50,945 nucleotides of DNA from Eubacterium sp. An11 (GTDB taxonomy: Bacteria > Bacillota > Clostridia > Lachnospirales > Lachnospiraceae), in the NCBI RefSeq assembly GCF_002161065.1, contig NZ_NFLV01000023.1:1-50945 (forward strand), given 5' to 3'. The notes under the pieces are model-generated. The model saw only the letters and a program-made list of their open reading frames with translations. It was not told the origin of the DNA and searched no databases. A program made the position numbers and the translations under genes. Of this stretch, positions 3,100 to 33,413 are shown piece after piece; within the stretch, counting starts at the first letter, position 1, and each line of letters begins with the position of its first letter.

Positions 3100-3165
3100 A
3101 AATATTTTCCGCTCCTTTCTCCGGGCCGGTGCCGGCAAAGGCATCCGGCTGTTTTATTTTATGCG

Positions 3166-3208
3166 ATAAAAAACAGGACAAAGAAGTCACAAAACTTCTT
3201 TGTCCTGT
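3166..3208 (-). terminator. Intrinsic terminator of the Fe-ADH gene
   Basis: A perfect 15-bp stem (3173-3187 with 3194-3208), six-base loop, followed on the minus strand by six U and then AUC. It sits 80 bp after the stop of the alcohol dehydrogenase and just upstream of the next minus-strand gene. Confidence 0.9.
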
Positions 3209-3285
3209 TGCTGAAACTGTATTTATCATAGCATATCCGGCAGGGAGGCGCAAGCCTTCGCCGGATATGACGGCTGAAAAGCAGA

Positions 3286-4467
3286 CTAGAAATCTACCTC
3301 GGTTCCGTAATAGGTGCAGGTAAACAGACGTTCCATTTCAGCCGGAGTGATCTCACGAGGATTGGAACCAGTACATGCATCGCCAACGGCCAGCTCAGAG
3401 ATATTGGCGACCTTGCTCTTGAATTCTTCTTCATTGATGCCGAATTCTTTCAGAGTCTTTGGAATGCCGAGGATGACATTAAAGTCATCAATCTTTTTGC
3501 ACAGGCTGTTGATCAACGCCTTCTGGCTGGTGCCGTCCAGTCCCATGCGGCGGGCAATCTCAGCGTAGCGTGCAGCAGCTACCGGATCCTTTGCGTTATA
3601 TTTGATAACATATGGCAGATAGATAGCGTTGGCGCATCCGTGCGGAATATGTCCGGTGGAGAAAGCAGCGCCGGTCTTGTGTGCCATGGAGTGGACGATG
3701 CCCAGCAGCGCGTTGGAGAAAGCCATGCCGGCCAGACACTGTGCGTAGTGCATCTGTTCTCTGGCGTCCATGTTACCATGGTAAGAAGCCGGCAGATAAT
3801 CAAGAACCATCTCGATGGCCTGCAGTGCCAGAGGATCAGTGAACGGTCCGTTCAGAGTGGATACATAAGCCTCGATGGCGTGGGTCAGAGCGTCCATGCC
3901 GGTGTAAGCCACCTGTTTTGCCGGAAGTCCGGAAACCAGATCAGGATCTACGATGGCAACGTCCGGTGTGATATTGAAGTCAGCCAGCGGATATTTTACG
4001 CCGGTCTCATAGTTGGTGATAACGGAAAATGCGGTAACTTCTGTAGCGGTACCGGATGTACTCGGAATAGCGGCAAATTTAGCTTTTTGTCTCAGTTCCG
4101 GGAAATTAAACGGAATACAGAGATCTTCGAAAGTAGTATCCGGATACTCATAGAATGCCCACATAGCTTTTGCAGCGTCGATTGGTGAACCGCCGCCCAT
4201 GGAAACGATCCAGTCAGGCTCAAACTTGCGCATAGCCTCAGCACCGCGCATAACAGTCTCCACGGATGGATCCGGCTCAACGCCCTCAAATACTTCCACT
4301 TCCATACCTGCCTCTTTCAGATAGCCGACGGCTTTATCAAGGAAGCCCTGACGTTTCATGGAACCGCCGCCCACTACAAGGATGGCTTTTTTTCCTTTCA
4401 GGTTCTTTAATTCTTCCAGACTGCCCGGTCCGTGGTAAATATCTCTAGGTAAAGTAAAACGACTCAT
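3286..4467 (-). CDS. Iron-containing alcohol dehydrogenase
   Basis: 393 residues, the usual size for group III (Fe-dependent) alcohol dehydrogenases, which reduce aldehydes to alcohols with NAD(P)H in fermentation. The start at 4467 follows GGAGGAG; the longer frame adds 17 residues without a ribosome site. The nucleotide-binding signature GGGSPIDAAK lies at 91-100. D192, H196, H259 and H276 sit where the family places its metal ligands (DALTHAIEAY, VHSMAH, PHG). Single-gene transcript: a promoter is visible at 4517-4544 and a terminator at 3166-3208. The acceptor (butanal, acetaldehyde or another aldehyde) cannot be told from sequence. Confidence 0.93.
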   Translation of the reverse strand: MSRFTLPRDIYHGPGSLEELKNLKGKKAILVVGGGSMKRQGFLDKAVGYLKEAGMEVEVFEGVEPDPSVETVMRGAEAMRKFEPDWIVSMGGGSPIDAAKAMWAFYEYPDTTFEDLCIPFNFPELRQKAKFAAIPSTSGTATEVTAFSVITNYETGVKYPLADFNITPDVAIVDPDLVSGLPAKQVAYTGMDALTHAIEAYVSTLNGPFTDPLALQAIEMVLDYLPASYHGNMDAREQMHYAQCLAGMAFSNALLGIVHSMAHKTGAAFSTGHIPHGCANAIYLPYVIKYNAKDPVAAARYAEIARRMGLDGTSQKALINSLCKKIDDFNVILGIPKTLKEFGINEEEFKSKVANISELAVGDACTGSNPREITPAEMERLFTCTYYGTEVDF

Positions 4468-7702: not shown

Positions 7703-9649
7703 ATGGCAGAGCAGGTATCACAATGGAGAAAAACATTTTGGAAGTCCCTGCGGTCAACGTTTCCGGTGATTCTCTTTTTCCTCACCACATTTTTGAGCGT
7801 CTATTTTCTCTTTGGCATCCATTACGCGATGATGGTGTCCATCATCACAGTCTTTTTTAAGACAAGATATAAGAAAAATGATAATACGCTGATACGGTAC
7901 ATAAGACTTATTCTGGTGGGAAGCCTGCTGGTGGTGCTGGCCTATGTGAGTTCATGGAGTCTCTGGATGTGTGTTCTTTTGAACATCACTGTGCCGTTTT
8001 GCCTGGTATTTACCCAGAGTACACAGTTTAAACCGAAGGGATACTTTTCTTACGCCATGATTTTTGTGTTTTTGTCCCTGATCCCCCCGGATAACCTGGC
8101 GGGGCTGGGACAGGAGCTTACGGTTTTCTGGTTCTGTGTGATTTTGCTGGCGGTTTTCATCGGAGGATATTACCGGTTTTTTGCCCGGACTTCAACGCAG
8201 ACTCTGACGCTGGAGTACATTTTCTGTGAAGTTTCGGGCATGATGTTCCTGCTTTTTCAAAAGGGAAAGCAGAAAGAACTGGAACGGCGTTTTCAGAATC
8301 TGCTCCATGATTTCAACCAGACTTCTTACCATCAGAACTTTTTTTCCACCAGAACCAGAGAGAATCAGATTTATGATATGGTAAATACCCTGCTTCAGAG
8401 ATTTTCCTACCTGATCACAGACGAAGAATGGCGCAGCGAGATGGATGAGGAGGGCATTCTGCTGCTGGGGCGGATCGCCACTTTTTTGAGGGAGACGGCG
8501 GAACGGCTGGATCCTCCGGCAAGTGATAAGCAGATAAAAATCGCACAGATGTATCTGGACCGTATGGTGGTGCCGGAAGGAAGAATCCGGATCTTCTGCC
8601 GGAGCATGCTTCACATGATGATCCTGATTTTAAAGACGCGGAACAGAAAAAAGACGCCGATGGAAAGACTTCATCAGGTTAATTGGCGGGAAATCTGGCA
8701 GCAGATACGGATGCGTTTTTCACTGGAATCCTTTGAGACCCGTGTGGCTATGCGGGTTTCTGCTGTCATGACCATCAGTTGTGTGGTCAGCTATGTGCTG
8801 CCGGTCACACATTCCTACTGGATTCCCCTCAACGCGTTTCTTTTAGTGCAGCCCAGCTGCGAGGAGAGCAGTTACCGGATGAAGACAAGACCCATCGGGA
8901 CATTGATTGGCTGCTGTATTGAGTTTTTGCTGCATCCGTTTCTGCCGGGAATCGTCGGACAGCTGGCTTTTGCGCTGGTGATGATTTCGCTGATGTATTG
9001 TTCCACGCCGGGAACCTGGTATCATCCGATCTTTTCTACCTGCTATGCGCTGACGCTGGCGGGAATGGTCATGAATGAGACCACGGCTATCACTCTGCGG
9101 CTGCTGTTTCTCATGGCAGCGGTAGCGATTGTGTTTGTGGTGAACCGTTTCTTTTTCCCGGTGCGCAGAGACGCGCTTTTCCGCTATAATATTAAAGCGC
9201 TTCTGCGCTTAAACTGCAGCTATTGGAAAATCATCGAAAAAGGGTTGAAACGAGACATAGATCTGTCGGTGTCCGGAGAAATCCTCACGTATTTTCATAT
9301 GATCTATGAAGAATGTATCGGATATCTGAAAAAACATCCCGGACTGCCCACTTACGAGGGACTGCGGGTAATTCTTCTGACCCTGTGGCATATGTTTTCA
9401 GAACTGGAACAGATGCACTATCTGGTGAGTGCGGGGGTGATACATCCGGAGGAAAGGGAGCGTATCGAAGACTTTATAGAGAGAATGCGAAAAGCGTTGT
9501 ATCCGAAGTTTGACAATAAGGAGGTCGCGGCATTGCGCAGACAGGTGAGTTACCTGGAACCGGAAGTAAATTATGTGCTGAACAAATACGTACTCCGGGC
9601 GGAGCGGCTGGGACGATACCGGACATGTATTCCGGGAAATGAAAGATAA
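7703..9649 (+). CDS. FUSC-family inner membrane protein (aromatic-acid-exporter-like)
   Basis: 648 residues with the duplicated layout of the FUSC/YccS family: a first block of hydrophobic helices (~residues 18-160), a soluble helical segment (~170-350), a second block of helices (~352-480), and a soluble C-terminal tail of ~160 residues. Members such as AaeB and fusaric acid resistance proteins export aromatic acids; here the substrate is only a guess. A GGACGG-type ribosome site lies 6 bases before the ATG. It is probably co-transcribed with the dehydrogenase upstream and ends at a bidirectional terminator. Confidence 0.8.
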   Translation: MAEQVSQWRKTFWKSLRSTFPVILFFLTTFLSVYFLFGIHYAMMVSIITVFFKTRYKKNDNTLIRYIRLILVGSLLVVLAYVSSWSLWMCVLLNITVPFCLVFTQSTQFKPKGYFSYAMIFVFLSLIPPDNLAGLGQELTVFWFCVILLAVFIGGYYRFFARTSTQTLTLEYIFCEVSGMMFLLFQKGKQKELERRFQNLLHDFNQTSYHQNFFSTRTRENQIYDMVNTLLQRFSYLITDEEWRSEMDEEGILLLGRIATFLRETAERLDPPASDKQIKIAQMYLDRMVVPEGRIRIFCRSMLHMMILILKTRNRKKTPMERLHQVNWREIWQQIRMRFSLESFETRVAMRVSAVMTISCVVSYVLPVTHSYWIPLNAFLLVQPSCEESSYRMKTRPIGTLIGCCIEFLLHPFLPGIVGQLAFALVMISLMYCSTPGTWYHPIFSTCYALTLAGMVMNETTAITLRLLFLMAAVAIVFVVNRFFFPVRRDALFRYNIKALLRLNCSYWKIIEKGLKRDIDLSVSGEILTYFHMIYEECIGYLKKHPGLPTYEGLRVILLTLWHMFSELEQMHYLVSAGVIHPEERERIEDFIERMRKALYPKFDNKEVAALRRQVSYLEPEVNYVLNKYVLRAERLGRYRTCIPGNER

Positions 9650-9689
9650 AAAGGGAGCGGCAGCGTTTTGACTGCCGCCCTGTTTTTTT
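9646..9689. terminator. Bidirectional intrinsic terminator between FUSC gene and cotJC 3' part
   Basis: GGGAGCGGCAG (9653-9663) pairs with CTGCCGCCC (9672-9680). It is followed on the plus strand by seven U (9683-9689) and on the minus strand by five U (complement of 9648-9652). It serves the FUSC transcript and the convergent cotJ operon, whose stop codon overlaps the T tract. Confidence 0.85.
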
Positions 9690-10152
9690 ATCTCCGGCAG
9701 CGTCCGTTCCTGCAGCAGCCATTACTGTTTGCATTTACGCCTTTATCAAAGGCCGGGTTAAAGGCGTAGAAGTTCCGGCTGTCCAGATGATCCTGCACGA
9801 TCCTGAGACCTTCGCCGAATCTCTGGAAATGCACGATTTCCCGGGCCCGGAGGAATTTGATGGCGCCGTAGACGTCCGGGTCGTCTTTGACGAGACGGAG
9901 GATATTGTCGTACGTGATCCGGGCTTTCTGTTCCGCAGCCAGGTCTTCCGTCAGGTCTGCGATCGGGTCGCCGGTGGACTGGAAGGTCGCCGCGGAAAAC
10001 GGCACGCCGCTGGCGGCCTGCGGCCACAGACCGGTGGTGTGATCCACATAGTAATCGGCAAACCCCTGTTCTTTGATCTGTTCCACAGTGAGATTGCGTG
10101 TCAGCTGATGGACGATGGTACAGATCATCTCGATGTGATTTAACTCTTCTGT
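9688..10152 (-). CDS. cotJC: CotJC (spore-coat manganese catalase), C-terminal part of an interrupted gene
   Basis: From 10151 down to the stop this encodes TEELNHIE, then MICTIVHQLTR, then ~140 residues of the manganese catalase/CotJC family, ending in a Cys/Arg-rich tail (NGCCRNGRCRR). It holds the metal ligands: the ExxH of TEELNH, and REIVHFQRFGE. It has no start codon with a ribosome site and no first third; the only early ATG is in MICT with none before it. The missing 62 codons lie at 17284-17470 on the same strand directly after cotJB. Joining the two at the shared core gives an uninterrupted ~216-residue CotJC reading ...GILTDIG-TEELNHIEMIC... . In the unrearranged chromosome neither part can make an active enzyme. 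Confidence 0.93.
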   Translation of the reverse strand, partial: TEELNHIEMICTIVHQLTRNLTVEQIKEQGFADYYVDHTTGLWPQAASGVPFSAATFQSTGDPIADLTEDLAAEQKARITYDNILRLVKDDPDVYGAIKFLRAREIVHFQRFGEGLRIVQDHLDSRNFYAFNPAFDKGVNANSNGCCRNGRCRR

Positions 10153-10164
10153 ACCTGTATCGGT
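10152..10164. other. Attachment-site core at the cotJC 3' part (attR-like)
   Basis: TACCTGTATCGGT (plus strand). It matches TACCTATATCGGT at 17284-17296 at 12 of 13 bases in the same orientation. Element sequence lies to its right. TCGGTGACA (10160-10168) is one arm of the palindrome formed when the element circularises. Confidence 0.85.
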
Positions 10165-10224
10165 GACAAAACCGCTGTCAGGGAGCGGACGGATGCAGGG
10201 GGTGCGGCGAATGTTTGTGTTATT

Positions 10225-10749
10225 TTACTCTGCATGGAGCAGGCGGCGCACATGGGCTTTTTCCAGAGCCGCGGCGATGGCGTAGTAGGCGGCGATATTG
10301 ACAACGCCCTCCAGAATCAGGCCCGGTGCGGAGGCCAGTCCCGCAGGAATACTTCCATATAAAATACTGCCGACGACAACATAACCGATGACCATCCACG
10401 CCATGGAAAGCACAGCGGCGAACAGATTGCGCGGGTGCCAGAGACGGTAGCCGCCTTCTTTATCGAACATCAGCTGGCTGGCAATGAGTACGATGATGAC
10501 CTTGATGAAAAATGTAGGAATCACCCACTGGGTAAATCCCGTTAGAAGGTCGGCCAGAGAAGAGCCGATACCGCTGGCCCAGACGGCTTCCCTCCGTCCG
10601 AAGTATGCCACGCCCAGCAGAATCATCGCGTCGCCCAGATGTGCATATCCCAGAGGAATGGGAATCTGAATGACCATGGTCATGATGCAGACAAGGGCGG
10701 TCAGAAGGGCGCCGCAGCAAAGGGAAAAAGTACTGATTTTGTGTTTCAT
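10225..10749 (-). CDS. ECF transporter S component
   Basis: 174 residues, almost wholly hydrophobic, with about five to six membrane helices. The segment from PIPLGYAHLGDAMILLG through FGRREAVWASGIGSSLADLL is the signature layout of small ECF-type substrate-binding (S) subunits, which work with a shared EcfA/A'/T energising module encoded elsewhere. The vitamin or metabolite bound cannot be predicted. An AGGTGA ribosome site precedes the ATG. It is the gene nearest the right end of the cotJC-interrupting element, in the same direction as the recombinase 177 bp upstream of it. No riboswitch was seen in front of it. Confidence 0.82.
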   Translation of the reverse strand: MKHKISTFSLCCGALLTALVCIMTMVIQIPIPLGYAHLGDAMILLGVAYFGRREAVWASGIGSSLADLLTGFTQWVIPTFFIKVIIVLIASQLMFDKEGGYRLWHPRNLFAAVLSMAWMVIGYVVVGSILYGSIPAGLASAPGLILEGVVNIAAYYAIAAALEKAHVRRLLHAE

Positions 10750-10925
10750 GATGTCACCTCATTTTTCTTTTTTGTACATGTGCCACTATATCACAAAACT
10801 GGCATGTCATATAGAACCAATTCATGACAAATATAAAGGTCAGATTAGGAATCTACCGTCAGCGAAGAGATGGCTGGGGCAGGTCGGTCAGATGTTTTGT
10901 ACAGGTCAGATTGCATGGGATAGGT

Positions 10926-11792
10926 TCACGTTTTGGACGGACGACGCCGGGAGCGGCGGGCCAGTTCTTCCTGCGTCCGGTTCCAGAGCTCCCGATCGAT
11001 GATGGGCGCATGGTGGTCTGTGATGGTGATGAAAGCTTCCTCTCCGTGGTTGGATTTTTTCAGATGGGTGAGATAGTCGGGAGTGATAGTTTTTTTCTGA
11101 CAAAGATCGCCGACATATTTTTCATTTCTCAGAATCTTGATGATGACGCCGGGAGACCAGCGGGCGGCATATTTGGGCGAAAAGCCCTCTTCCAGCAATT
11201 CCGCTGCAATCCGGCGGGCGCTCTTTCCTTCTTCCGTATATTTGTGAAAAATGCGCCGGACGACGAAGGCCTCCGGTTCATGGATGGAAAGCCGGCCATC
11301 CCGCACGGTATAGCCAAGAAGATCCCGGCCGAAAACAACACCCTGCTCCATTCTCCTTTTCTGTCCCCATTTCACCCTCTCCGAGATCTTGCGGCTTTCT
11401 TCCTGGGCCAGGCTTGCCATGAGAGTGAGCCGCAGTTCCCCGTCGCAGTCTCTGGTGTCAATGTGATCCAGAATAAAAATCACGCCGATGCGACGTTCCC
11501 GAAGCATCCGCGTGTAGGCCAGAGCGTCTACCGTATTTCTGGCAAAACGGCTCACCTCCTTGGTGAGGATCAGATCGATCCGTCCATCCATGGCGTCGTC
11601 GATCATCCGGTTAAATCCCGCTCTTTTCTTTGTCTGCGTTCCGCTGATCCCCTCATCATAATAGACTTCGGTCAATGTCCAGTCCTCCCGCTGCCGGATA
11701 TAGTCCGCAAAGTACTGCTGCTGGCTGCGAAGAGACTGGGCCTGTTCTTCCCTGTCGGTGGAAACCCGGCAGTAGGCGGCAGTTCGCAACAT
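10926..11792 (-). CDS. Serine recombinase, compact form; probable excisionase of the cotJC element
   Basis: 288 residues. Residues ~3-150 are a resolvase-type catalytic domain with YCRVSTD carrying the nucleophilic serine and the SRFARN arginine motif. Residues ~158-265 are the 'Recombinase' DNA-binding domain (LGYTVRDG..., IHEPEAFVVRRIF, KILRNEKYVGD). The protein stops after a basic tail (RRSRRRP). Typical large serine recombinases continue with a zinc ribbon and coiled coil to ~500 residues; nothing in the 170 bp downstream encodes these in any frame I read. Two tandem ATGs follow AGGAG; the second (11792) has the better spacing. It sits inside the element about 0.8 kb from the attR-like core. 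No convincing sporulation-sigma promoter was found. Confidence 0.9.
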   Translation of the reverse strand: MLRTAAYCRVSTDREEQAQSLRSQQQYFADYIRQREDWTLTEVYYDEGISGTQTKKRAGFNRMIDDAMDGRIDLILTKEVSRFARNTVDALAYTRMLRERRIGVIFILDHIDTRDCDGELRLTLMASLAQEESRKISERVKWGQKRRMEQGVVFGRDLLGYTVRDGRLSIHEPEAFVVRRIFHKYTEEGKSARRIAAELLEEGFSPKYAARWSPGVIIKILRNEKYVGDLCQKKTITPDYLTHLKKSNHGEEAFITITDHHAPIIDRELWNRTQEELARRSRRRPSKT

Positions 11793-11878
11793 CATGAACT
11801 CCTGTGAATATGGTTATTACAAGAAATATGAAGAAGATAGGGGGAGTATTCCGTATTCCGGCCACTTAGTCTGAGAAA

Positions 11879-12604
11879 TTAATTCTTCTTTCTCGTGGCC
11901 GTGGTCTGAAAGGAAAAGTAGTCCGGGCGGTGGCGGGAATGGGTGTACTCAAACATGATGCCGTCGTCGTTGAAGGTCTGGCCGGTGACCACTGCCAGGC
12001 AGTTGTAATCGCCCAGTTCCAGAAAGGACTCGTCCGCCGGGGTGACGTGTTCCACGGTCATGGTCCTTCTGCTGGTCACAATGGCCATTTCCAGCTCATT
12101 TTCAATGTATTCGTAAATGGAAGTCTCGGCGATGGCTTCCGTGAGGCCGGGCACCAGACTTTTCAGAAAAAAGTTCGTGTCAAGAATCAGCGGTTTGCCG
12201 TCCAGATACCGGACGCGGCGCACATAATAAAGTTCGTCGCCAGGCTGAAAACCGGTGCGGCGGGAGAGCCGCTCGTCGCAGACAATCTCGTCAAATTGTA
12301 CTACTTTTGTCACCGTGGTCCGGTGATTGCGCCGGGCGGATTCCTGAAAGGATTCGATGCCGCCCATGAGAAAACTGTTGGTGTGGACAGGCTGGTAGAT
12401 GACGCGGACGCCTTTTCCGTGCAGCGGCTGCACATAGCCGTCATCGGTCAGCATGGAGACGGCGCGGCGGACCGTATTGCGGGAACAGTCATAGATATCC
12501 ACCATGGTGTTTTCCGACGGGAGCATCTGCTGATATTCATATTCGGACGTCTCTATCTTAGATTTTAAGTCTTTATATATCTCATTAAATTTTACTCTGG
12601 GCAT
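11879..12604 (-). CDS. treR: TreR, GntR-family trehalose operon repressor
   Basis: 241 residues: an N-terminal winged helix-turn-helix (1-75, with CSRNTVRRAVSML) and a C-terminal UTRA effector domain (~85-235). The closing EYTHSRHRPDYF and the IYEYIENEL segment match TreR of Bacillus well. TreR binds trehalose-6-phosphate and represses the tre genes. It is divergent from treP, and the shared control region holds four CTTGTTTAAACAAG palindromes, its likely operators. The ATG follows GGAG. The serine recombinase lies 87 bp downstream and could be on the same transcript. Confidence 0.92.
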   Translation of the reverse strand: MPRVKFNEIYKDLKSKIETSEYEYQQMLPSENTMVDIYDCSRNTVRRAVSMLTDDGYVQPLHGKGVRVIYQPVHTNSFLMGGIESFQESARRNHRTTVTKVVQFDEIVCDERLSRRTGFQPGDELYYVRRVRYLDGKPLILDTNFFLKSLVPGLTEAIAETSIYEYIENELEMAIVTSRRTMTVEHVTPADESFLELGDYNCLAVVTGQTFNDDGIMFEYTHSRHRPDYFSFQTTATRKKN

Positions 12605-12650
12605 AAAATCTCCTCTATTTTCTCATAGTAAATGTTTGGTAACTAATATC

Positions 12651-12678
12651 ATTATAACAGAAAAATGAAAAAATACAA
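12651..12678 (-). promoter_or_regulatory. treR promoter
   Basis: Minus strand TTGTAT (12673-12678), 16-bp spacer, TATAAT (12651-12656). The first TreR palindrome (12679-12692) abuts the -35 box, consistent with autoregulation. Confidence 0.65.
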
Positions 12679-12796
12679 CTTGTTTAAACAAGATAGAAAA
12701 ATGTTCTTGACTTGTTTAAACAAGTGTGCTATAAATAAATCATCAAACTTGTTTAAACAAGATAGATGCATAAATTCCGGAACTTGTTTAAACAAT
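12679..12796. promoter_or_regulatory. Four TreR operators
   Basis: Perfect palindromes CTTGTTTAAACAAG at 12679-12692, 12711-12724 and 12748-12761, plus CTTGTTTAAACAAT at 12783-12796. Spacing from start to start is 32, 37 and 35 bp, about three helical turns, allowing same-face binding. Site 2 overlaps the -35 and spacer of the treP promoter; sites 3 and 4 lie in the leader. Confidence 0.9.
12707..12735 (+). promoter_or_regulatory. treP promoter
   Basis: TTGACT (12707-12712), 17-bp spacer, TATAAA (12730-12735). Operator 2 covers its -35 edge and spacer. Confidence 0.75.
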
Positions 12797-12840
12797 AAAC
12801 CGATGCTTTATTCAAGGAGAAATGATAGGGAGGAATAGTA

Positions 12841-14847
12841 ATGGGAAGATATCAGGAAGATTCCAAAGAACTTTTGGAACTGATAGGTGGAAAGAGCAAC
12901 ATTGCCGCAGTATCGCATTGTATGACCAGAATGCGTTTTGTACTCAATGACCCGGGAAAGGCGGACATAGAAGGCATCGAAGCCATGAAGGTGGTCAAGG
13001 GAAGTTTTACCCAGTCGGGGCAGTTTCAGGTGATCATTGGCAATACGGTGGCAGATTTCTATAATGACTTTGTGGCGGTTGCCGGCGTGGAAGGCGTCAG
13101 CAAGGATCAGGTGAAACAGGCCGCCAAGCAGAATCAGAACGTGCTGCAGCGAATCGTCACAGCACTGGCGGAGATTTTCGCGCCGTTGATCCCGGCCATC
13201 ATCACCGGTGGTCTGATCCTCGGTTTCAGGAACTGCATCGACAGCCTTTATCTTTTTGAAAACGGAACGAAGACCCTCTGTGATCTGAGCCAGTTCTGGA
13301 GCGGCATGGACAGCTTCTTATGGCTCATCGGTGAAGCTATCTTCCACATGCTGCCGGTGGGTATCTGCTGGTCGGTGACCAAAAAGATGGGAACCACCCA
13401 GATGCTTGGTATTGTTCTTGGTCTGACCCTGGTATCCGGACAGCTGCTGAATGCTTACGATGTGGCAACCACAGCCGCAGCGGATATTCCGGCGTGGGAT
13501 TTCGGATTTTTTAAAGTGAACATGATCGGTTATCAGTCTCAGGTGATTCCGGCGATTTTGGCCGCATTTACTCTGGTATATCTTGAGAAGTTCTTCCGTA
13601 AGATCACGCCTGCGGTGGTTTCGATGATCGTCGTGCCGTTCTGCAGTCTGGTTCTCGCCGTCGTTGCGGCACATTTTATCCTCGGACCGATCGGCTGGAA
13701 GATTGGCTCTGCCATCTCCTCTCTGGTCTTCGCAGGTATCACCGGTTCCTTCCGTGTTGTATTCGGCGCTGTCTTTGGTTTCATATATGCGCCGCTGGTC
13801 ATTACAGGACTTCACCATATGTCCAATGCCATCGACCTGCAGCTGATCGCTGACTATCGCGGAACCATGCTCTGGCCGATGATTGCTTTATCTAATATCG
13901 CACAGGGCTCCGCAGTTCTCGCCATGATCGTTCTGCAGAGAAAGAATGCGGAAGCCCAGGAAGTCAACATTCCATCCTGTGTTTCCTGTTATTTAAGTGT
14001 AACGGAACCGGCCATCTTCGGTGTGAACTTAAAATATGTATTTCCATTTGTGTGTGGTATGATCGGCTCCGCCATTGCCGGCGTTGTCAGCGTGGCCACA
14101 GGCACCACAGCATCCGCCATCGGTGTCGGGGGACTGCCGGGAATCCTCTCCATTCAGACCCAGTCCATGCTCAGCTTTGCCATCTGTATGGTCATTGCCA
14201 TCGTGATTCCGTTTGTGCTGACTTTGATCGTGGGACAGAAGAAACTGACCGCTTCCCAGAAATACGGACCGGCTGTCATGGAAGGAGAAGACACTGCCGC
14301 TGCAGACGCACAGGGAGCAGGGAAGGACGAAATGTCCGATCATGAAGTTTCTGATGCAGGCAGTAATGCAGTTTCTGCCGCAAAAGAGATGCCGAAGGAG
14401 CTGGTTGCTTTCCTTGACGGAAAGGTGATTCCGGTAAAAGAAGTGGGAGACGGCGTGTTCTCCGAGGGAATCATGGGAGACGGCATCGCCATCATCCCGG
14501 AAAATGAAGTGCTGGTTTCTCCGGTGGCCGGTGAAGTTGCCGTGACCATGGATGAATCCCGCCACGCCTGCGCCATCAAGGCGGACAATGACATGGAGAT
14601 CCTGCTGCATATCGGTCTTGATACCGTGGATATGAACGGGGATGGTTTTGAGTATCTCATCACCAAAGGACAGAGAGTGGAAGCAGGCACGCCGCTGATC
14701 CGGTTCAACAGGGAGAAAATTCAGGCGGCCGGACACAGAGACGTGACCATGTGCATTATTTCTGATCCGGGCAGGGCAGAAAATATTCAGTATCAGTTTA
14801 CAGAAAATGCAAAGGCAGGCGAGACTGTCGTTGCCACATTTGAGTAA
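12841..14847 (+). CDS. treP: Trehalose-specific PTS enzyme IIBCA
   Basis: 668 residues in the order IIB-IIC-IIA. IIB (1-85) has the phosphorylated Cys27 in SHCMTRMRF. IIC (~105-480) is the membrane channel, including FIYAPLVITGLHHM. IIA (~520-665) is of the glucose type, with His575 and His590 (ILLHIGLDTV). It takes up trehalose and phosphorylates it to trehalose-6-phosphate. Bacillus TreP lacks a fused IIA and borrows one; here the system is self-contained. A GGGAGG ribosome site precedes the ATG. The substrate call rests on the adjacent treR and treC. The whole gene lies inside the cotJC-interrupting element. Confidence 0.92.
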   Translation: MGRYQEDSKELLELIGGKSNIAAVSHCMTRMRFVLNDPGKADIEGIEAMKVVKGSFTQSGQFQVIIGNTVADFYNDFVAVAGVEGVSKDQVKQAAKQNQNVLQRIVTALAEIFAPLIPAIITGGLILGFRNCIDSLYLFENGTKTLCDLSQFWSGMDSFLWLIGEAIFHMLPVGICWSVTKKMGTTQMLGIVLGLTLVSGQLLNAYDVATTAAADIPAWDFGFFKVNMIGYQSQVIPAILAAFTLVYLEKFFRKITPAVVSMIVVPFCSLVLAVVAAHFILGPIGWKIGSAISSLVFAGITGSFRVVFGAVFGFIYAPLVITGLHHMSNAIDLQLIADYRGTMLWPMIALSNIAQGSAVLAMIVLQRKNAEAQEVNIPSCVSCYLSVTEPAIFGVNLKYVFPFVCGMIGSAIAGVVSVATGTTASAIGVGGLPGILSIQTQSMLSFAICMVIAIVIPFVLTLIVGQKKLTASQKYGPAVMEGEDTAAADAQGAGKDEMSDHEVSDAGSNAVSAAKEMPKELVAFLDGKVIPVKEVGDGVFSEGIMGDGIAIIPENEVLVSPVAGEVAVTMDESRHACAIKADNDMEILLHIGLDTVDMNGDGFEYLITKGQRVEAGTPLIRFNREKIQAAGHRDVTMCIISDPGRAENIQYQFTENAKAGETVVATFE

Positions 14848-14908
14848 GGAAAAACATTTGCTGAGAAATGTCAGCATCCTCAAGACGAGAAAGAAATGGG
14901 TGAAAACA

Positions 14909-16576
14909 ATGAATAATTTCAGTGATAAAGTCATTTATCAAATATATTTGAGGTCCTTCAAAGATTCCAACGAAGATGGAATCGGAGACATCAGAGGAAT
15001 TACACAGCAGCTGGATTATCTGAAGGAACTGGGTGTGGATTATCTGTGGATTACTCCTTTCTTCGTATCTCCACAGAACGACAACGGCTACGATGTGGCT
15101 GATTACCGGAACATCGATCCGATTTTCGGCACCATGGAGGATCTGGAGGAGCTGATCCGGGAAGGCAAAAAACGGGGCATGGAGCTGATGCTTGACATGG
15201 TGTTCAATCATACTTCCACCAGCCATGAGTGGTTTCAGAAGGCCCTTGCCGGTGATGAAAAATATCAGAACTATTACATTTTCAAGGATGGAACACCGGA
15301 CAAAATCCCGACCAACTGGGAATCCAAATTCGGCGGCCCGGCATGGGAATACGTGCCGCATCTGAAAAAATGGTATCTGCATCTGTTTGATGTAAGCCAG
15401 GCCGACTTAAACTGGGAGAATCCGGAAGTGCGGGAAGAGTTGAAGAACGTCATTCGATTCTGGCAGAAAAAGGGGATCGGAGGATTCCGGTTTGATGTGG
15501 TAAATCTTATCTCCAAACCGGAGCATTTTGAGGATGACCATATTGGCGATGGCCGCCGTTTCTACACAGACGGCCGCCACGTCCATGAGTTCTTAAAAGA
15601 ACTGACCGCCGATACCGGTCTTGATCAGTATGTGACCGTGGGAGAAATGTCATCCACCACTCTGGATAACTGCATCCGCTACTCCAATCCGCAGGAGAAG
15701 GAACTGAGCATGTGCTTTAATTTCCATCATCTGAAGATTGATTACAAGGACGGAAAGAAATGGGAGTTGATGGAACCGGATCTGATGCGTTTAAAAGAGC
15801 TGTTTGAAACCTGGGGAACAGGTATGCAGGAAGGAAACGGCTGGAACGCCTTATTCTGGTGCAACCACGATCAGCCGAGAATCGTCAGCCGTCTGGGAGA
15901 CGAGGATCGTTACTGGAAGGAATCGGCCGAAATGCTGGCTGCGTCCGTACATTTGATGCGCGGCACGCCGTACATTTACCAGGGAGAGGAAATCGGCATG
16001 ACCAATCCGCATTTTGACGACATCCGCCAGTACCGCGATGTAGAGAGTCTGAATTATTACCGCATTCTGCTGGAACAGGGCAAAACCAGCAGGGAAGCCA
16101 TGGATATCCTTCAGGCGCGCTCCAGAGACAACGGCCGGACGCCGGTACAGTGGAACGCCGGGGAAAACGCCGGATTTACCACCGGCACACCGTGGATCGG
16201 CATTGATAAAAACTACCAGACCATCAACGCGGCCGCGCAGCGAAATGACCCGGATTCCATCCTGGCTTTTTATAAAAGACTGATTCAGCTTCGGAAGGAG
16301 AAAAAAGTGATTGCGGAAGGCGAGATTGCTTTCCTCGAGAAAGAGAATGCAAACGTGCTGGCCTACCGCCGTGTCCTCGACGGAGAAGAACTGATCGTGT
16401 TTAATAATCTCACCGGTCATCCGGCGGAGGTACATCTGGATGAAGCCTGGAAAAATTATTCTATACTGCTGACAAATTACGAAGGGGAAAAAAGCAGAAC
16501 GGAAGAAGCGCTGCATCAAGCTTCGGGAAATACATGGACCCTGCGTCCTTATGAGACGTTGACGCTGGAAAAATAG
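14909..16576 (+). CDS. treC: Trehalose-6-phosphate hydrolase (GH13)
   Basis: 555 residues, normal for TreA/TreC. It splits trehalose-6-phosphate to glucose and glucose-6-phosphate. GH13 landmarks: DYLWITPFF near the N-terminus, MVFNHTS, GGFRFDVVNLIS (nucleophile Asp), VGEMSS (acid/base Glu), and WCNHDQPRI. The long match around GDGRRFYTDG and RYSNPQEKELSM is specific to phosphotrehalases. Start: ATG at 14909, with GGGTG 7 bases before; the frame is open from 14807 but overlaps treP. 61 bp separates it from treP, so it is in the same operon. A terminator follows. Confidence 0.93.
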   Translation: MNNFSDKVIYQIYLRSFKDSNEDGIGDIRGITQQLDYLKELGVDYLWITPFFVSPQNDNGYDVADYRNIDPIFGTMEDLEELIREGKKRGMELMLDMVFNHTSTSHEWFQKALAGDEKYQNYYIFKDGTPDKIPTNWESKFGGPAWEYVPHLKKWYLHLFDVSQADLNWENPEVREELKNVIRFWQKKGIGGFRFDVVNLISKPEHFEDDHIGDGRRFYTDGRHVHEFLKELTADTGLDQYVTVGEMSSTTLDNCIRYSNPQEKELSMCFNFHHLKIDYKDGKKWELMEPDLMRLKELFETWGTGMQEGNGWNALFWCNHDQPRIVSRLGDEDRYWKESAEMLAASVHLMRGTPYIYQGEEIGMTNPHFDDIRQYRDVESLNYYRILLEQGKTSREAMDILQARSRDNGRTPVQWNAGENAGFTTGTPWIGIDKNYQTINAAAQRNDPDSILAFYKRLIQLRKEKKVIAEGEIAFLEKENANVLAYRRVLDGEELIVFNNLTGHPAEVHLDEAWKNYSILLTNYEGEKSRTEEALHQASGNTWTLRPYETLTLEK

Positions 16577-16597
16577 TTTCCGAAAAGGCAGTGCAAA

Positions 16598-16634
16598 AAT
16601 AAAACCGGGGGACGGGAAGTCCTCCGGTTTTATT
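16598..16634 (+). terminator. tre operon terminator
   Basis: AAAACCGG (16602-16609) pairs with CCGGTTTT (16624-16631), extended by GGAC/GTCC inside. It begins about 22 bp after the treC stop. The overlapping A/T ends allow weak bidirectional use, which would also end the small gene at 16677. Confidence 0.75.
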
Positions 16635-16676
16635 CTGCCATGAGAGTCATGACAGATAACTTTTCAGATAATGTCT

Positions 16677-16874
16677 TTATACTCTATACGCAATCAAAGC
16701 GATATTTTTTCCTGTTTCCTGACGGATGGAATCCTCCAGGGCACGAATCTTCTTCAGATATGTTTCTGAAAGAGACGCAACCGGTCTTGACTCAGTACCG
16801 TAAGCAAGAGCGGAATTGTTGGCAGTAGTTGGCGCTGCGTGATAGAGGACCTTCGATGAAGTCTTGTAATACAT
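16677..16874 (-). CDS. Small protein of unknown function (65 aa) inside the cotJC element
   Basis: The start ATG at 16874 follows AAAGGAG by 10 bases; an in-frame ATG 11 codons earlier lacks a ribosome site. The sequence begins MYYKTSSKVLYHAAPTTANN and has a charged amphipathic C-terminal half (LSETYLKKIRALEDSIRQETG). No Cys, no signal peptide. I do not recognise the family. It has its own SigA-like promoter. Directionality factors of sporulation elements (SprB of SP-beta, for example) are also small proteins encoded inside their elements, which makes this a candidate only by size and place. Confidence 0.65.
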   Translation of the reverse strand: MYYKTSSKVLYHAAPTTANNSALAYGTESRPVASLSETYLKKIRALEDSIRQETGKNIALIAYRV

Positions 16875-16931
16875 AATGCCGTCACTCCTTTCACAGATAA
16901 TATGCACAATGAAACTATTGCTATACAGTTA

Positions 16932-16960
16932 ATTATATCCAGCGAAAACCACCTGTGAAA
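16932..16960 (-). promoter_or_regulatory. Promoter of the 65-aa gene
   Basis: Minus strand TTCACA (16955-16960), 17-bp spacer, TATAAT (16932-16937), located between the tRNA 3' end and the small gene. Confidence 0.55.
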
Positions 16961-16969
16961 GCTGTAGAA

Positions 16970-17040
16970 AGCAGATAACGGGAGTCGAACCCGCCTCTTC
17001 GGCTTGGGAAGCCAATGTTCTACCGATGAACCATATCTGC
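16970..17040 (-). tRNA. tRNA-Gly (anticodon CCC)
   Basis: A full cloverleaf on the minus strand: acceptor GCAGATA/TATCTGC, D arm GTTC/GAAC, anticodon stem TTGGC/GCCGA with loop TTCCCAA, and T arm GCGGG/CCCGT with loop TTCGACT. Anticodon CCC reads GGG. The CCA end is not encoded. It lies inside the element that interrupts cotJC, about 0.25 kb from the attL-like core, and is transcribed from the promoter at 17144-17171. Confidence 0.95.
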
Positions 17041-17074
17041 ACACACCAGCCGGAGCGTGTTCCTCCGGGAAAAT

Positions 17075-17116
17075 CTAATGTGTGAACCGAGACACCTCCG
17101 ATACAGTGTAAACCAT
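17075..17116 (-). pseudogene. Remnant of a MerR-family N-terminus (13 codons)
   Basis: In the leader between the promoter and the tRNA, GGGAGGAG is followed one base later by ATG and the frame MVYTVSEVSRFTH then TAG. That is the conserved first turn of MerR-type regulators (xYTVSEVSxLT). Nothing downstream continues the family. It could be the stump left when the tRNA unit replaced a regulator, or a chance match of about ten residues. Confidence 0.4.
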
Positions 17117-17131
17117 ACTCCTCCCAGAACT

Positions 17132-17171
17132 GGTGCTATCCTCATTATAGCACCGGAAAAGAAAAATGCAA
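17132..17171 (-). promoter_or_regulatory. tRNA-Gly promoter with overlapping operator-like dyad
   Basis: Minus strand TTGCAT (17166-17171), 16-bp spacer, TATAAT (17144-17149). GGTGCTAT (17132-17139) and ATAGCACC (17147-17154) form a perfect 8-bp inverted repeat with a 7-bp spacer straddling the -10 box, the look of a repressor or MerR-type operator. Confidence 0.65.
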
Positions 17172-17182
17172 GGCTGCATTTC

Positions 17183-17470
17183 TTAGAAAAATTCGCCAAT
17201 TATATATTTTATATGAACCGGAAATTTATCCGAAAGACAAAATCCATGCGGATAAAACGGACGCAGTTTCCGTGTCACCGACATACCTATATCGGTCAAT
17301 ATTCCCATCACTTCCCGGTACGGCATGGCGAAGCGCTGGGAGAGATAGCGGAGGGAGGCGCCGGTCTCGCCATCCGGACCTCCGAACTGCGTAATGATCG
17401 CCTTTGCCATCTGCGCGTCTGTTCTCCGGATATTTACCGGGTACTGTAATCTTTTCTCATAATTAAACAT
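17183..17470 (-). CDS. cotJC: CotJC (spore-coat manganese catalase), N-terminal part of an interrupted gene
   Basis: The start at 17470 lies one base after the cotJB stop. Codons 1-62 (MFNYEKRLQYPVNIRRTDAQ ... MGILTDIG) are the normal N-terminus of CotJC. At the 13-bp core the frame enters the intervening element and ends after 33 unrelated residues at 17183. The break falls between LTDIG and the expected TEEL, one residue before the first ExxH metal motif, so this 95-residue product cannot bind the dimanganese centre. The rest of the gene is at 9688-10152. Operon with cotJA and cotJB. Confidence 0.93.
   Translation of the reverse strand: MFNYEKRLQYPVNIRRTDAQMAKAIITQFGGPDGETGASLRYLSQRFAMPYREVMGILTDIGMSVTRKLRPFYPHGFCLSDKFPVHIKYIIGEFF
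17284..17296. other. Attachment-site core at the cotJC 5' part (attL-like)
   Basis: TACCTATATCGGT (plus strand), direct repeat of the core at 10152-10164. TGTCACCGA at 17273-17281 on the element side is the second palindrome arm. Confidence 0.85.
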
Positions 17471-17471
17471 A

Positions 17472-17729
17472 TCAACAATCCCCCTCCCAAGGCCAAGGCT
17501 GTGTCGCCCATTTCCAGGTATCATCTGTCTGCGCGCCGTTTAAGGTCAGAGGACCGAAGCGGACAGCGTATTCGTGGAGCGCCTGCTGTCTTGCTTTGTT
17601 AAAATGATGAAAATATTCGAGAGCTTCCGCGTCGTTTGGATGGGTATCCAGGTACAGAGAGGCGTCCAGAGCCGCAAAACTCACCGCGTCAATATAAAAT
17701 AAAAGATTTTTCTGCTCCATTTTGGACAT
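17472..17729 (-). CDS. cotJB: CotJB, spore coat protein
   Basis: 85 residues from the ATG that overlaps the cotJA stop in TAATG; an ATG four codons earlier sits directly on the GGAAGGAG site and is less likely. The CotJB family pattern is clear: LLFYIDAVSFAALDASLYLDTHP, then EALEYFHHFNKARQQAL and the C-terminal WKWATQPWPWEGDC. CotJA, B and C form an inner spore-coat or outer-forespore-membrane set made in the mother cell. Tightly coupled between cotJA and the broken cotJC. Confidence 0.92.
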   Translation of the reverse strand: MSKMEQKNLLFYIDAVSFAALDASLYLDTHPNDAEALEYFHHFNKARQQALHEYAVRFGPLTLNGAQTDDTWKWATQPWPWEGDC

Positions 17730-17923
17730 TATTTCACACATCTCCTTCCGGTAAAAGGTAAATTGAGTTCTTCAAAAATGGTGCCTTCCATGAGAGCGTC
17801 TTCCGCTTTATATAAATTCCCCCAGCTTTGCCATGGAACGTAGGCCATGGCCAGAGGGAGTGAATCAACATTTTTTATGTCAGTCGGATGATGATGCTCG
17901 GAAAAAGTTTTTATTTCTTCCAT
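17729..17923 (-). CDS. cotJA: CotJA, spore coat-associated protein
   Basis: 64 residues, start 7 bases after GAGAGGAG. It carries the CotJA core PLAMAYVPWQSWGNLYKAEDAL, GTIFEELNLPF and the terminal GRRCVK. First gene of cotJABC. A promoter with the shape of a SigE site lies directly upstream (17957-17984). Confidence 0.92.
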   Translation of the reverse strand: MEEIKTFSEHHHPTDIKNVDSLPLAMAYVPWQSWGNLYKAEDALMEGTIFEELNLPFTGRRCVK

Positions 17924-18101: not shown

Positions 18102-19244
18102 ATGACAAAGATAGATATTATCTCCGGCTTCCTGGGAGCCGGAAAAACCACATTGATCAAGAAGCTCATCGCAGAGGCGCTGCAGGGCCAGAAAGTTGTG
18201 CTCATCGAAAATGAGTTTGGCGAGATTGGCATTGACGGGGGATTCCTCAAGGAGTCCGGCATCCAGATCAATGAGATGAACTCCGGCTGTATCTGCTGCT
18301 CTCTGGTGGGTGACTTTAACGCGGCCCTCAAAGATGTGCTGTCCCAGTATGAGCCGGACCGGATCATCATCGAGCCGTCGGGCGTCGGCAAGCTGTCCGA
18401 TGTCATCAAAGCGGTGCAGAAAGTGGTTGACGGAGAAAATGTAGTGCTTGACAGCTACATCACTGTGGCGGACGTGAAACGTGCAAAAATGTATTTAAAG
18501 AACTTCGGTGAGTTCTACAAGAATCAGGTGCAGTACGCCAGCGCCATTATTTTAAGCCGTACCCAGGATGTGAAGGAAGACAAGCTGGAGAAGACCATTG
18601 AGTTGATCCGCACCCTCAACGACCGTTCCCCGATCGTCACCACGCCGTGGGAGGATATCACCGGCGGGCAGATCCTTGCCGTGATGGAAGGAAAGAATGA
18701 TTTTGCCGAGGAACTGCTGCGGGAGGCAGAGATCTGTCCGGAATGCGGCCACCATCATCATGATGGAGAACACTGCCATCATGAAGACCATGACCATCAT
18801 CATGAGCACCATGAAGATCACGACCACTGTCACCATGACGACCACGGACATGATCATGACCACTGTCACCATGACGACCATGACCATCATCATGAGCACC
18901 ATGAAGATCATGACCACTGCGGTCATGACCATCATCACGGTCATGAAGGCCATCATCATGCCGATGAAGTATTTACCAGCTGGGGTAAGGAGACGCCGAA
19001 GAAGTTCACAGAAGAACAGGTGCGGGGAATCCTTGAGAAACTGGCCGATGAGGACAGCAGAGAGTACGGTATTATTTTGAGAGCCAAAGGGATCGTTCCG
19101 GATGAGGAAGGCAGATGGCTGCACTTTGATCTGGTTCCTGGTGAGGAAGAAGTACGGTACGGTTCCGCAGAGTACACAGGAAGAATCTGTGTCATCGGTT
19201 CTGAACTGAAAGAAGATAAGCTTATGGAGCTGTTTGGCTTATAG
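18102..19244 (+). CDS. CobW/COG0523 GTPase with long His-rich metal-binding region
   Basis: 380 residues. The N-terminal GTPase domain has the P-loop GFLGAGKTTL (residues 9-18), the family metal-binding CICC motif (about 62-65) and EPSGVG. Residues ~215-290 are a His/Asp/Glu/Cys-rich tract with over 40 histidines, built from a DNA repeat of 90-bp period. A CobW C-terminal domain follows (EVFTSWGKETPKKFT...). COG0523 proteins are GTP-driven metal chaperones for zinc, cobalt, nickel or nitrile hydratase iron/cobalt. The His tract suggests metal storage or buffering; which metal is unknown. Start follows GGAAAGG. Operon with the next gene, 19 bp on. Confidence 0.9.
   Translation: MTKIDIISGFLGAGKTTLIKKLIAEALQGQKVVLIENEFGEIGIDGGFLKESGIQINEMNSGCICCSLVGDFNAALKDVLSQYEPDRIIIEPSGVGKLSDVIKAVQKVVDGENVVLDSYITVADVKRAKMYLKNFGEFYKNQVQYASAIILSRTQDVKEDKLEKTIELIRTLNDRSPIVTTPWEDITGGQILAVMEGKNDFAEELLREAEICPECGHHHHDGEHCHHEDHDHHHEHHEDHDHCHHDDHGHDHDHCHHDDHDHHHEHHEDHDHCGHDHHHGHEGHHHADEVFTSWGKETPKKFTEEQVRGILEKLADEDSREYGIILRAKGIVPDEEGRWLHFDLVPGEEEVRYGSAEYTGRICVIGSELKEDKLMELFGL
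18791..18920 (+). repeat. Internal repeat coding for the His-rich tract
   Basis: The stretch CATGAGCACCATGAAGATCA at 18791 recurs at 18881 (period 90 bp), with CACTGTCACCATGACGACCA repeats between. It likely grows and shrinks by slippage or recombination. Confidence 0.7.
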
Positions 19245-24208: not shown

Positions 24209-24973
24209 ATGACAGTATTAAAAGCGGAACATATCACAAAACAATATAGTGGACGGACCATCATCGAGGATATCAATATCGATCTGAGAGAAGGAGAGCT
24301 GGTTTCTCTTTTAGGCGTGAGCGGCGCGGGCAAAACCACGCTGTTCCACGTCCTCTCCGGCCTGGTTCCCCCGGAAGAGGGGCGGGTGCTTCTCTCCGGC
24401 GAGGACATCACGGCAAAGCCGGGCAGAATCAGCTATATGATGCAGAAGGATCTGCTTCTGCCCCACAAAAAGATCATCGACAACGTATCCCTGCCGCTGG
24501 TGTTAAAGGGCGAGAAGAAAAAAGAAGCCAGACAAAAGGCGGAACCGCTTTTTGAGGAATTTGGACTGGAAGGGACCCAGTATCAGTATCCCAGCCAGCT
24601 TTCCGGCGGTATGAGACAGCGGGCAGCCCTTCTCCGGACCTATCTGTCATCCAACGGCGTGGCCCTGCTGGATGAGCCATTCAGCGCGTTGGACACCATC
24701 ACGAAGTCCAGCATCCACCGCTGGTATCTGGACGTGATGGAGCATATTAAGCTGTCCACACTTTTTATCACCCATGATATCGACGAGGCGATCCTGCTCT
24801 CAGACCGTATCTACATCTTAAATGGAAAACCGGGCAGGATCACAGAAGAGATTGTCATTGAAGAAAAGAAACCGCGGCCGGCGGACTTTAATCTGACGGA
24901 CACATTCTTTCGTTATAAAAAAGAGATCATCAGTAAGCTGGCACTGGACAGATCACAGGAGCAGCGGCCATAA
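24209..24973 (+). CDS. thiZ: ABC transporter ATP-binding protein (ThiZ-like)
   Basis: 254 residues. Walker A is GVSGAGKTT, the signature is LSGGMRQRAAL, Walker B is GVALLDEPFSALD and the switch His is in LFITHDIDEA. It is the energising subunit of the thi importer and last gene of the TPP-controlled operon. The AAGACGGC stretch before the ATG is a weak ribosome site. The stop codon touches the edge of the 0.9-kb inverted-repeat element, so no separate terminator is present. Confidence 0.9.
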   Translation: MTVLKAEHITKQYSGRTIIEDINIDLREGELVSLLGVSGAGKTTLFHVLSGLVPPEEGRVLLSGEDITAKPGRISYMMQKDLLLPHKKIIDNVSLPLVLKGEKKKEARQKAEPLFEEFGLEGTQYQYPSQLSGGMRQRAALLRTYLSSNGVALLDEPFSALDTITKSSIHRWYLDVMEHIKLSTLFITHDIDEAILLSDRIYILNGKPGRITEEIVIEEKKPRPADFNLTDTFFRYKKEIISKLALDRSQEQRP

Positions 24974-25876: not shown

Positions 25877-26074
25877 TTTCAATTCCTCAATCCAATGTTT
25901 CATTAGAGCATTTCCTTTTTTGTAAGACTCTTTTTCAAAATCTATATTCGATTAATTCAGTACAGTAATCCACATTGTATCAATTCCCTGTATGTTATTT
26001 TATAGAATATGAATCTTAAGCTATGCTGTCCATAGCAATGTCGCACCCCGTAAGAACTAGTAAAAATTTAGTAC

Positions 26075-26101
26075 TTGACTATACATAGTACCTAGTATAA
26101 T
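26075..26101 (+). promoter_or_regulatory. padR promoter with possible operator
   Basis: TTGACT (26075-26080), 15-bp spacer, TATAAT (26096-26101). ACTAT-AC-ATAGT (26079-26090) is a dyad between the boxes, a likely PadR autoregulatory site. Confidence 0.5.
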
Positions 26102-26145
26102 ATAGTATTCACAAGAAAGCAGTAGCCACGGAAAGGAGTGGATGG

Positions 26146-33390: not shown

Positions 33391-33413
33391 CAGGAAGGAG
33401 AAAGGAGACGGAT

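Follow-up and report, generated by a model that had tools for sequence, protein, structure and literature searches.

How does a sporulation gene whose two halves are held apart by 7,132 bp of inserted DNA give rise to its protein? The question is raised by cotJC in a 50,945-nucleotide stretch of Eubacterium sp. An11 (contig NZ_NFLV01000023.1 of assembly GCF_002161065.1; hereafter, the window), in which codons 1–62 and codons 63–216 lie on the minus strand on either side of the insertion. CotJC is a manganese catalase (PF05067) with a role in the spore coat. An initial annotation of the window had proposed that the gene is split by a skin-like, recombinase-bearing element of about 7.1 kb and can be rebuilt in frame, and this proposal is supported by an exact joint, by inverted arms resembling att sites and by a serine recombinase encoded within the element. 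Given that the element has its own recombinase and that the same gene is cut in like manner in many relatives, cotJC is probably repaired by deletion of the element when spores form.

The split cotJC gene and its joint

The cotJ operon of the window reads, on the minus strand, cotJA-like open reading frame (ORF), cotJB and cotJC. The first of these (MEEIKTFSEHHHPTD..., 17729..17923, an ORF call) is presumably cotJA, a name taken from its position and a family resemblance, and cotJB (17472..17741) matched PF12652 with an E value of 7.7e-30. The 5' part of cotJC (codons 1–62; 17285..17470) corresponded to positions 1–63 of the PF05067 profile (E 2.0e-13), and the 3' part (Gly62/Thr63 to the stop codon; 9688..10155), which carries the ExxH motif that follows the joint, corresponded to positions 57–197 (E 3.2e-27). 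The two pieces scored 95.9 and 51.2 bits, relative to a cut-off of 27, and contained no internal stop codons. Gly62 is encoded by GGT at 17287–17285, beyond which the reading frame departs from the CotJC family; the gene resumes at 10155–10150, with TEELNHIEM... beginning at 10152, and its stop codon ends at 9688. Joining of the two parts at the GG of codon 62 yielded FAMPYREVMGILTDIG-TEELNHIEMICTIVH, with no base lost or gained, and the rebuilt protein reads FAMPYREVMGILTDIGTEELNHIEMICTIVH across the joint. Joining at the shared GG of Gly62 thus restores a CotJC family protein, as had been claimed.

A 13-bp core common to both break points had also been described. Two such copies are present in direct orientation, TACCTGTATCGGT at 10152–10164 and TACCTATATCGGT at 17284–17296, but they are identical at 12 of the 13 positions rather than all of them, and uninterrupted identity around the joint is confined to AGGTA. 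As a sign of a recombination site, the inverted arms that surround the GG carry more weight than the shared 13-mer. In gene orientation, the putative attL is ACCGATATAGG|TATGTCGGTGAC (17266..17296, minus strand) and the putative attR is GTCACCGATACAGG|TACAGAAGAG (10140..10170, minus strand). Rearrangement of these sites into the junction expected of a circle gave near-palindromic arms around GG, with 11 to 16 of 21 positions being symmetric in the four genomes compared.

Recurrence of split cotJC genes

To judge from its named near relatives, the window belongs to the gut-associated genus Anaerobutyricum. We grouped 24 genomes of this genus, including that of the window (G000), by genome search. 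PF05067 was matched in 14 of these genomes, in 10 of which the pieces meet across a break. The break is at codon 62 in G000, G020, G022, G005, G013, G017, G002 and G009, at about codon 136 in G008, and at about codon 32 in G007, with the pieces lying on different contigs in G017, G002, G009 and G007. In G013, the gene is cut at codon 62 and apparently also at about codon 136, where the contig ends. Only one piece of this gene was found in G001 and G006, and only a whole gene in G004 and G018. The element of G005 carries a different gene set, including a phosphoesterase and an AAA-ATPase (Pfam names), and G008 shares cargo genes with G020 despite the different insertion site and a recombinase that is only 29% identical. 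The genes flanking cotJC in the window, for a FUSC-type transporter and a CobW-type GTPase, are both kept at the split cotJC of G020 and G022, and a CobW gene is also found near cotJC in G005, G013, G008, G001, G009, G017 and G007.

The search was extended to 298 Lachnospiraceae genomes, 190 of which had a CotJC match. Sixty-three genomes whose best match was weaker than about 5e-41, picked by eye, were searched again, and the counts that follow cover these 63, with the other 127 matching genomes lying outside them. Pieces tiled CotJC in 49 of the 63, including cases with pieces on different contigs. A single break fell at profile position 64 (22 genomes), 32 (14) or 150 (9), corresponding to codon 62, about codon 32 and about codon 136, respectively; the other four tiling genomes have two breaks each, one of which, in G221, lies outside the tolerance set for site 32. 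Among the other 14 genomes, pieces did not tile fully in three (G213, G131 and G190), eight had one piece, and the remainder showed a whole gene (G343), an indel-like pattern (G078) or a different match (G158). A whole CotJC was among the matches listed for 1 of the 63 genomes, and ribosomal protein L1, examined as a control, gave a single whole match in all 63. In the wider order, cotJC of G052 is divided into four pieces spread over three contigs, and three serine recombinases are encoded close to the breaks.

Contigs were also scanned for relatives of the window's recombinase, and the best 80 of 332 were kept. Three of these 80 loci are from close relatives of the window and had contributed their recombinases to the query; among the others, some are nearly identical to each other. 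A cotJC piece was present in the fetched DNA of 69 of the 80 loci, although not always directly beside the recombinase, and one locus beyond these 69, L066, has a short piece at a contig end. The ten other loci comprise seven with different neighbours and three (L085, L098 and L100) in which the sequence stops no more than about 140 bases from the recombinase. A named isolate with a split gene is Lactonifactor longoviformis DSM 17459 (L091). The elements that could be delimited span 1,591 to 14,083 bp; given that the reading frame (and, in one run, also the register) was imposed during delimitation, these values locate joints and sizes and are no test of frame. Pieces of cotJC on the same contig imply that some elements reach 40 to 50 kb. 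The smaller elements L101, L190 and L195 contain little beyond a recombinase, and some small elements carry one metabolic function; in L080 and L083, both from Blautia, this is what we take to be an L-serine dehydratase pair. The smallest delimited site-62 element (L189, contig C99 of G341, 1855–3456; 1.59 kb) encodes a short serine recombinase and an ORF whose product resembles a Spo0A C-terminal-type protein. Free or phage-borne forms were looked for among 34 loci from viral contigs: CotJC was matched in 7, with the match in L212 as weak as an E value of 0.009, and a crude pattern for the outer att arm gave 8 matches in the 12 loci tried, which did not establish a free form.

The breaks are thus not a matter of chance, in that interruption at codon 62 together with a related element recombinase recurs in other species, including on the single contig of G005. 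An assembly artefact was rejected: the breaks recur at the same codons, G005 (locus L035) is a single contig, and the ribosomal protein L1 control was unbroken in each of the 63 genomes. As read from these genomes, cotJC is a recurrent target with three recurring break sites.

Three loci showed further copies of cotJC. In L070 (JALFLM010000126.1, 6928–11778), a whole second cotJC (7866–8459), preceded by what appear to be its own small cotJ genes, lies between the halves of a split cotJC, so that either an element or a tandem duplicate would carry an uninterrupted copy. Two copies of the 3' part of cotJC are present both in L069 (CANQVH010000038.1, 28–447 and 2398–2817) and on contig C68 of G099 (14708–15085 and 18245–18625), and such doubling suggests repeated or nested insertion at the same site.

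Selection and inheritance of the element

Ratios of nonsynonymous to synonymous substitution rates (dN/dS) were estimated between species with the NG86 method. For comparisons among G000, G020, G022 and G013, dN/dS was 0.00–0.10 for the 5' part of cotJC and 0.09–0.13 for the recombinase, and for those among G000, G020 and G022 it was 0.05–0.06 for the 3' part. The dS values in these comparisons were 0.6–1.1, apart from the recombinase pair of G020 and G013, at 0.03. For most pairs that included G005, saturation prevented a ratio from being obtained. A second lineage of truncated recombinases gave a dN/dS of 0.04. The extensions of the reading frames past the breaks, beyond the att arms, are unlike between species. 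Strong purifying selection on both halves and on the recombinase, while the gene is split, argues against decay and for regular excision. Together with the recurrence in relatives, it supports the proposal that excision rebuilds cotJC.

The element and its flanks have diverged to a similar extent in G000, G020 and G022, with dS values of 0.97–1.19 for treR, 1.10–1.41 for the energy-coupling factor (ECF) transporter gene and 1.07–1.13 for the recombinase, compared with 0.81–1.08 for CobW, 1.09–1.38 for cotJB and 1.21–1.98 for FUSC, which indicates that the element has aged with its hosts. Between G020 (L033, contig C35) and G013 (L037, contig C168), by contrast, dS was 0.00–0.04 for element genes and 0.75 for CobW and 1.53 for cotJB. 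A near-identical element between diverged flanks points to exchange of the element and the adjoining 3' part between lineages, and purely vertical inheritance is ruled out for this pair. By these distances, the element is old, common to several species, and exchanged between species at least once.

The recombinase and its recombination sites

The recombinase of the element (10926..11795, minus strand) is a 289-residue serine recombinase with Resolvase (PF00239, E 4.9e-32) and Recombinase (PF07508, E 1.2e-21) domains. It keeps the conserved columns of the catalytic domain and stops directly after the recombinase domain. No PF13408 zinc ribbon was detected in it at an E value of 0.001, or in the recombinases of G020, G022, G013, G017 and G005 at 0.01. 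By Pfam, recombinases that lack the zinc ribbon and keep the catalytic and recombinase domains are found in G000, G020, G022, G013, G005, G017, G341 (L189) and G181 (L192). All nine full-length recombinases scanned matched the zinc ribbon at an E value of 1e-4 or better, though for three the score lay under the curated cut-off. Across the element loci scanned, the protein ended no more than 70 residues past the recombinase domain in 11 recombinases and extended further in 104; three of the 11 are duplicate loci, leaving eight genomes. A zinc domain in a neighbouring frame or a separate ORF was also sought, and no convincing match was found (best E value, 0.5).

The two Anaerobutyricum groups with short recombinases fall apart from each other in a tree built from 80 recombinase rows; the label requires two changes, and the starred branches force two. 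Loss of the zinc-ribbon/coiled-coil part is thus well supported as having happened at least twice within the genus. The short recombinases of G341 and G181 belong to other recombinase families with one genome each, and decay is possible for these two because they are single cases. Among the best 80 of 332 relatives, the closest named ones are from Candidatus Anaerobutyricum stercoripullorum, Eubacteriaceae bacterium CHKCI004 and Candidatus Anaerobutyricum avicola. Within the window genome, the closest other recombinases are 45% and 40% identical, and both are encoded on contig C9; action of these relatives in trans is possible but unsupported. Contig C9 contains five large serine recombinase genes in two tight clusters (24884–28553 and 79223–81556). 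In addition, many full-length recombinases (L053–L132) are preceded by an ORF of 43 to 66 residues with a COOH-terminus resembling ...YKELHRRxxLSDxQLNxLL, a candidate partner protein.

For the family of full-length recombinases, GG at codon 62 in the same codon phase was found in 40 of 41 attR and 51 of 53 attL sites, a constancy that is modest evidence alone because Gly62 is a conserved residue. The circle junction of this family shows an inner motif at positions 4–10 from GG and an outer motif, GCAATTTCG, at about positions 13–21. The 91 arms of the family scored means of 5.10 of 7 for the inner motif and 6.55 of 9 for the outer motif, although the consensus was built from the same arms. The eight arms of four elements with short recombinases scored 5.75 and 5.25 of 7 for the inner motif, which is thus kept, and 3.00 and 2.00 of 9 for the outer motif, compared with 2.25 expected by chance, which is thus not kept; these arms come from related elements and so are not independent. 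Arms of the second short lineage are symmetric at 13 of 13 positions in G005 and at 14 of the first 15 in G017, after which the symmetry fades. According to work on other integrases, these touch the attP half-site with both domains, and their coiled coil blocks recombination of attL with attR (PMC3783163, PMC10754689, PMC5025042). Loss of the zinc domain together with the outer arm is as predicted by this contact structure, and the joint loss suggests that the short enzymes may work.

Other genes of the element

The remaining cargo includes an ECF transporter S component (10225..10749, minus strand; PF07155, E 1.7e-23) and three trehalose genes: the operon repressor treR, a GntR regulator (11879..12604, minus strand; TIGR02404, 227 bits), treP for the phosphotransferase system (PTS) component EIIBC-A (12841..14847, plus strand; TIGR01992, 674 bits), and treC for alpha,alpha-phosphotrehalase (14909..16576, plus strand; TIGR02403, 844.7 bits), all above cut-off. 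treC exceeded its cut-off in 4 of the 24 genomes of the genus, each time within a cotJC element. The element also contains a tRNA-Gly(CCC) gene (16970..17040, minus strand; tRNA search), the sole CCC glycine tRNA among the 51 of 56 genome tRNAs that were typed.

A 65-residue ORF (16677..16874, minus strand) is conserved in all four tre elements, with 62–69% identity in G020, G013 and G022, and was found in no other element locus searched (E ≤ 1e-3). Family searches, including PHROGs, assigned it to no protein family. It is, by its distribution, the best candidate for a partner of the recombinase, and a candidate only for a recombination directionality factor (RDF).

Five window proteins (the recombinase, GntR regulator, transporter, PTS protein and 65-residue ORF, with the phosphotrehalase left out) were compared with PHROGs. 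The hits of the recombinase were to integrase, invertase and transposase families, and those of the GntR regulator were to unnamed families and, weakly, to two replication families; none was obtained in this search for the transporter, the PTS protein or the 65-residue ORF. With Pfam and NCBIfam, and with PHROGs for the five proteins, none of the genes of the element was recognised as a phage structural gene. The recognised cargo being metabolic, identity as a prophage has no support.

Elsewhere in the window, two ORFs (33366–34865 and 39388–40287) share a stretch resembling YMxxHGCAxCxxxTxLxxY and, by eye, resemble related C39-type proteins.

Proposed excision and alternatives

We consider it likely that the inserted DNA is a site-specific cargo element flanked by attL and attR of its own recombinase, and that its excision, in the mother cell and perhaps without an RDF, rebuilds cotJC. 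The recombinase would join attL and attR at GG, the first two bases of the Gly62 codon, with the element being released as a circle and an intact cotJC left behind. By analogy with skin, SP-beta, gin and yin, excision during sporulation would be confined to the mother cell, and both the split gene and the element would therefore be retained in the spore. Given that the recombinase has lost the zinc-ribbon/coiled-coil part, by which integration is made one-way in large serine recombinases, and that the att sites lack the corresponding outer arms, excision may also proceed without a classical directionality factor. Excision at GG, its restriction to sporulation and the mother cell, and its independence of an RDF are each inferred.

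Several observations weigh against this proposal. A sigma-E-like pattern was present in only 4 of 61 regions upstream of recombinase genes, a weak signal given that 200 mononucleotide shuffles gave a mean of 0.59 and a maximum of 4, and G022 lacks the TTCATATTT box that the window has in common with G020 and G013. An intact CotJC paralogue that is 66% identical, with its own cotJB, is encoded on contig C39 and could cover the loss of the split gene. The earlier statement that an active CotJC requires the join consequently holds for the split gene and not for the genome. Finally, two studies indicate that removal of the zinc domain or coiled coil from studied integrases reduces DNA binding or activity (PMC3783163, PMC10754689), so that weak activity, or dependence on a partner, is conceivable for the short recombinase.

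If the element instead excised and reinserted independently of sporulation, as a mobile island or phase switch for which cotJC is merely a convenient attB, spores would derive from cells that happened to have lost it. Our scans of upstream regions did not establish a sporulation promoter, seven of the 80 recombinase loci have neighbours other than cotJC, and the element moves between species (dS of 0.00–0.04 for G020 and G013, compared with 0.75–1.5 for the flanks). A recombinase without a coiled coil could moreover act in both directions, to judge from PMC10754689. The excised form of yin is described as present at all time points, but also as more abundant at late ones (PMC10747680), and SP-beta and C. 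difficile skin are described as excising during sporulation (PMC4191935, PMC5025042). Divergence of the element to the same extent as its flanks in G000, G020 and G022 is not easily expected of a freely lost island, and we regard sporulation-independent excision as unlikely.

Far less probable is that the split cotJC is a relic killed by the insertion, with an intact paralogue doing the work. Such a paralogue, with its own cotJB, is indeed present in G000, G013, G022 and G006, and the profile match of the 3' piece of G008 has one internal TGA, although the part after the joint is open. Both halves show dN/dS values of 0.00–0.10 between species with the split gene, however, the pieces in the window are free of stops, and 49 of 63 Lachnospiraceae genomes tile with no whole-length match among the matches listed. 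The initial annotation had named an intact second cotJC together with frame-breaking decay of the two parts as the outcome that would speak against rebuilding; the second gene was found and the decay was not, and dN/dS and the open frames rule out a pseudogene. Least probable of all is separate translation of the two halves, which would then associate into a split enzyme with no need for excision. Each half does lie in an open frame, and the 3' part of G020 and G022 is entered by an open frame that has a possible start. Beyond the att arms, however, the sequences that follow codon 62 and precede codon 63 vary between species with no conserved start, and the first start codon of the 3' part in the window falls after the first ExxH motif.

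Returning to excision that rebuilds cotJC at sporulation, we tentatively extend it, at slightly less than an even chance, to the idea that elements resident in cotJC are a natural nursery of minimal serine recombinases, in which the zinc-ribbon/coiled-coil part and the outer att arms would be lost repeatedly, excision would proceed without an RDF, and control would pass wholly to the timing of host sporulation. Natural recombinases of about 290 residues with short, near-palindromic sites offer a direct test of how large serine recombinases become one-way, and are a possible small tool for genome engineering. In many cases, a CotJC gene of Lachnospiraceae that seems to be missing or truncated is probably an intact gene that awaits rejoining. 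Few genes of spore formers are known to undergo programmed DNA rearrangement, and the cutting of cotJC at three recurring sites in dozens of Lachnospiraceae genera provides a statistical system for studying why elements take up residence in sporulation genes and by what means they are maintained there.

Comparison with known elements

In the literature consulted, the sporulation genes described as interrupted are sigK, spsM, spoVFB, spoVR, gerE and yabG. We found no report of a split cotJC in the literature searched, which included few subscription papers and no bioRxiv preprints, so that an earlier report is possible. Sporulation gene-intervening elements were compared as a class (skin, SP-beta, vfbin, vrin, gin and yin), and the window element shares its features: a position inside a sporulation gene, a serine recombinase of its own, and att-like repeats that restore the reading frame.

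Like the window element, skin (sigK; B. subtilis and C. difficile) and SP-beta (spsM) contain a large serine recombinase, have att sites with inverted repeats and allow a sporulation gene to be rebuilt in frame (PMC5025042, PMC4191935). They differ in being prophages or prophage remnants, with an RDF described for SP-beta and C. difficile skin (PMC5025042, PMC4191935), and CD1231 of C. difficile skin has zinc and coiled-coil parts (PMC5025042), whereas the window recombinase is without the zinc domain. The gin element (gerE, Bacillus cereus ATCC10987) resembles it in being a non-phage element with one or more serine recombinases and a small sporulation gene rebuilt during sporulation, but is 28.6 kb long, has three recombinases and interrupts another gene (PMC5595907), whereas cotJC is hit at three sites in many genera by elements that span 1.6 to 14 kb where delimited, with some gaps of 40–50 kb between pieces on one contig. 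The yin element (yabG, Clostridium botulinum) also splits a sporulation gene, with a 14-bp repeat, and both its circle and the rebuilt gene were shown by polymerase chain reaction (PMC10747680); it is prophage-like and, according to its authors, unique to one strain (PMC10747680), whereas splitting of cotJC recurs across genera.

The nearest precedent found is phi027 of C. difficile R20291, a mobile element integrated at a cotJC-type gene, cotG (PMC11222575, PMC12122855). It is described as adjoining the CotJC homologue, and the available text reports no splitting or rebuilding of cotJC (PMC11222575, PMC12122855). With regard to the recombinase itself, LI and phiC31 integrases from which the coiled coil has been deleted are engineered and are weak or dead (PMC10754689, PMC3783163). 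In contrast to these deletions, the zinc-ribbon/coiled-coil part of the window recombinase is naturally absent, the protein is under purifying selection, and its att arms are shortened.

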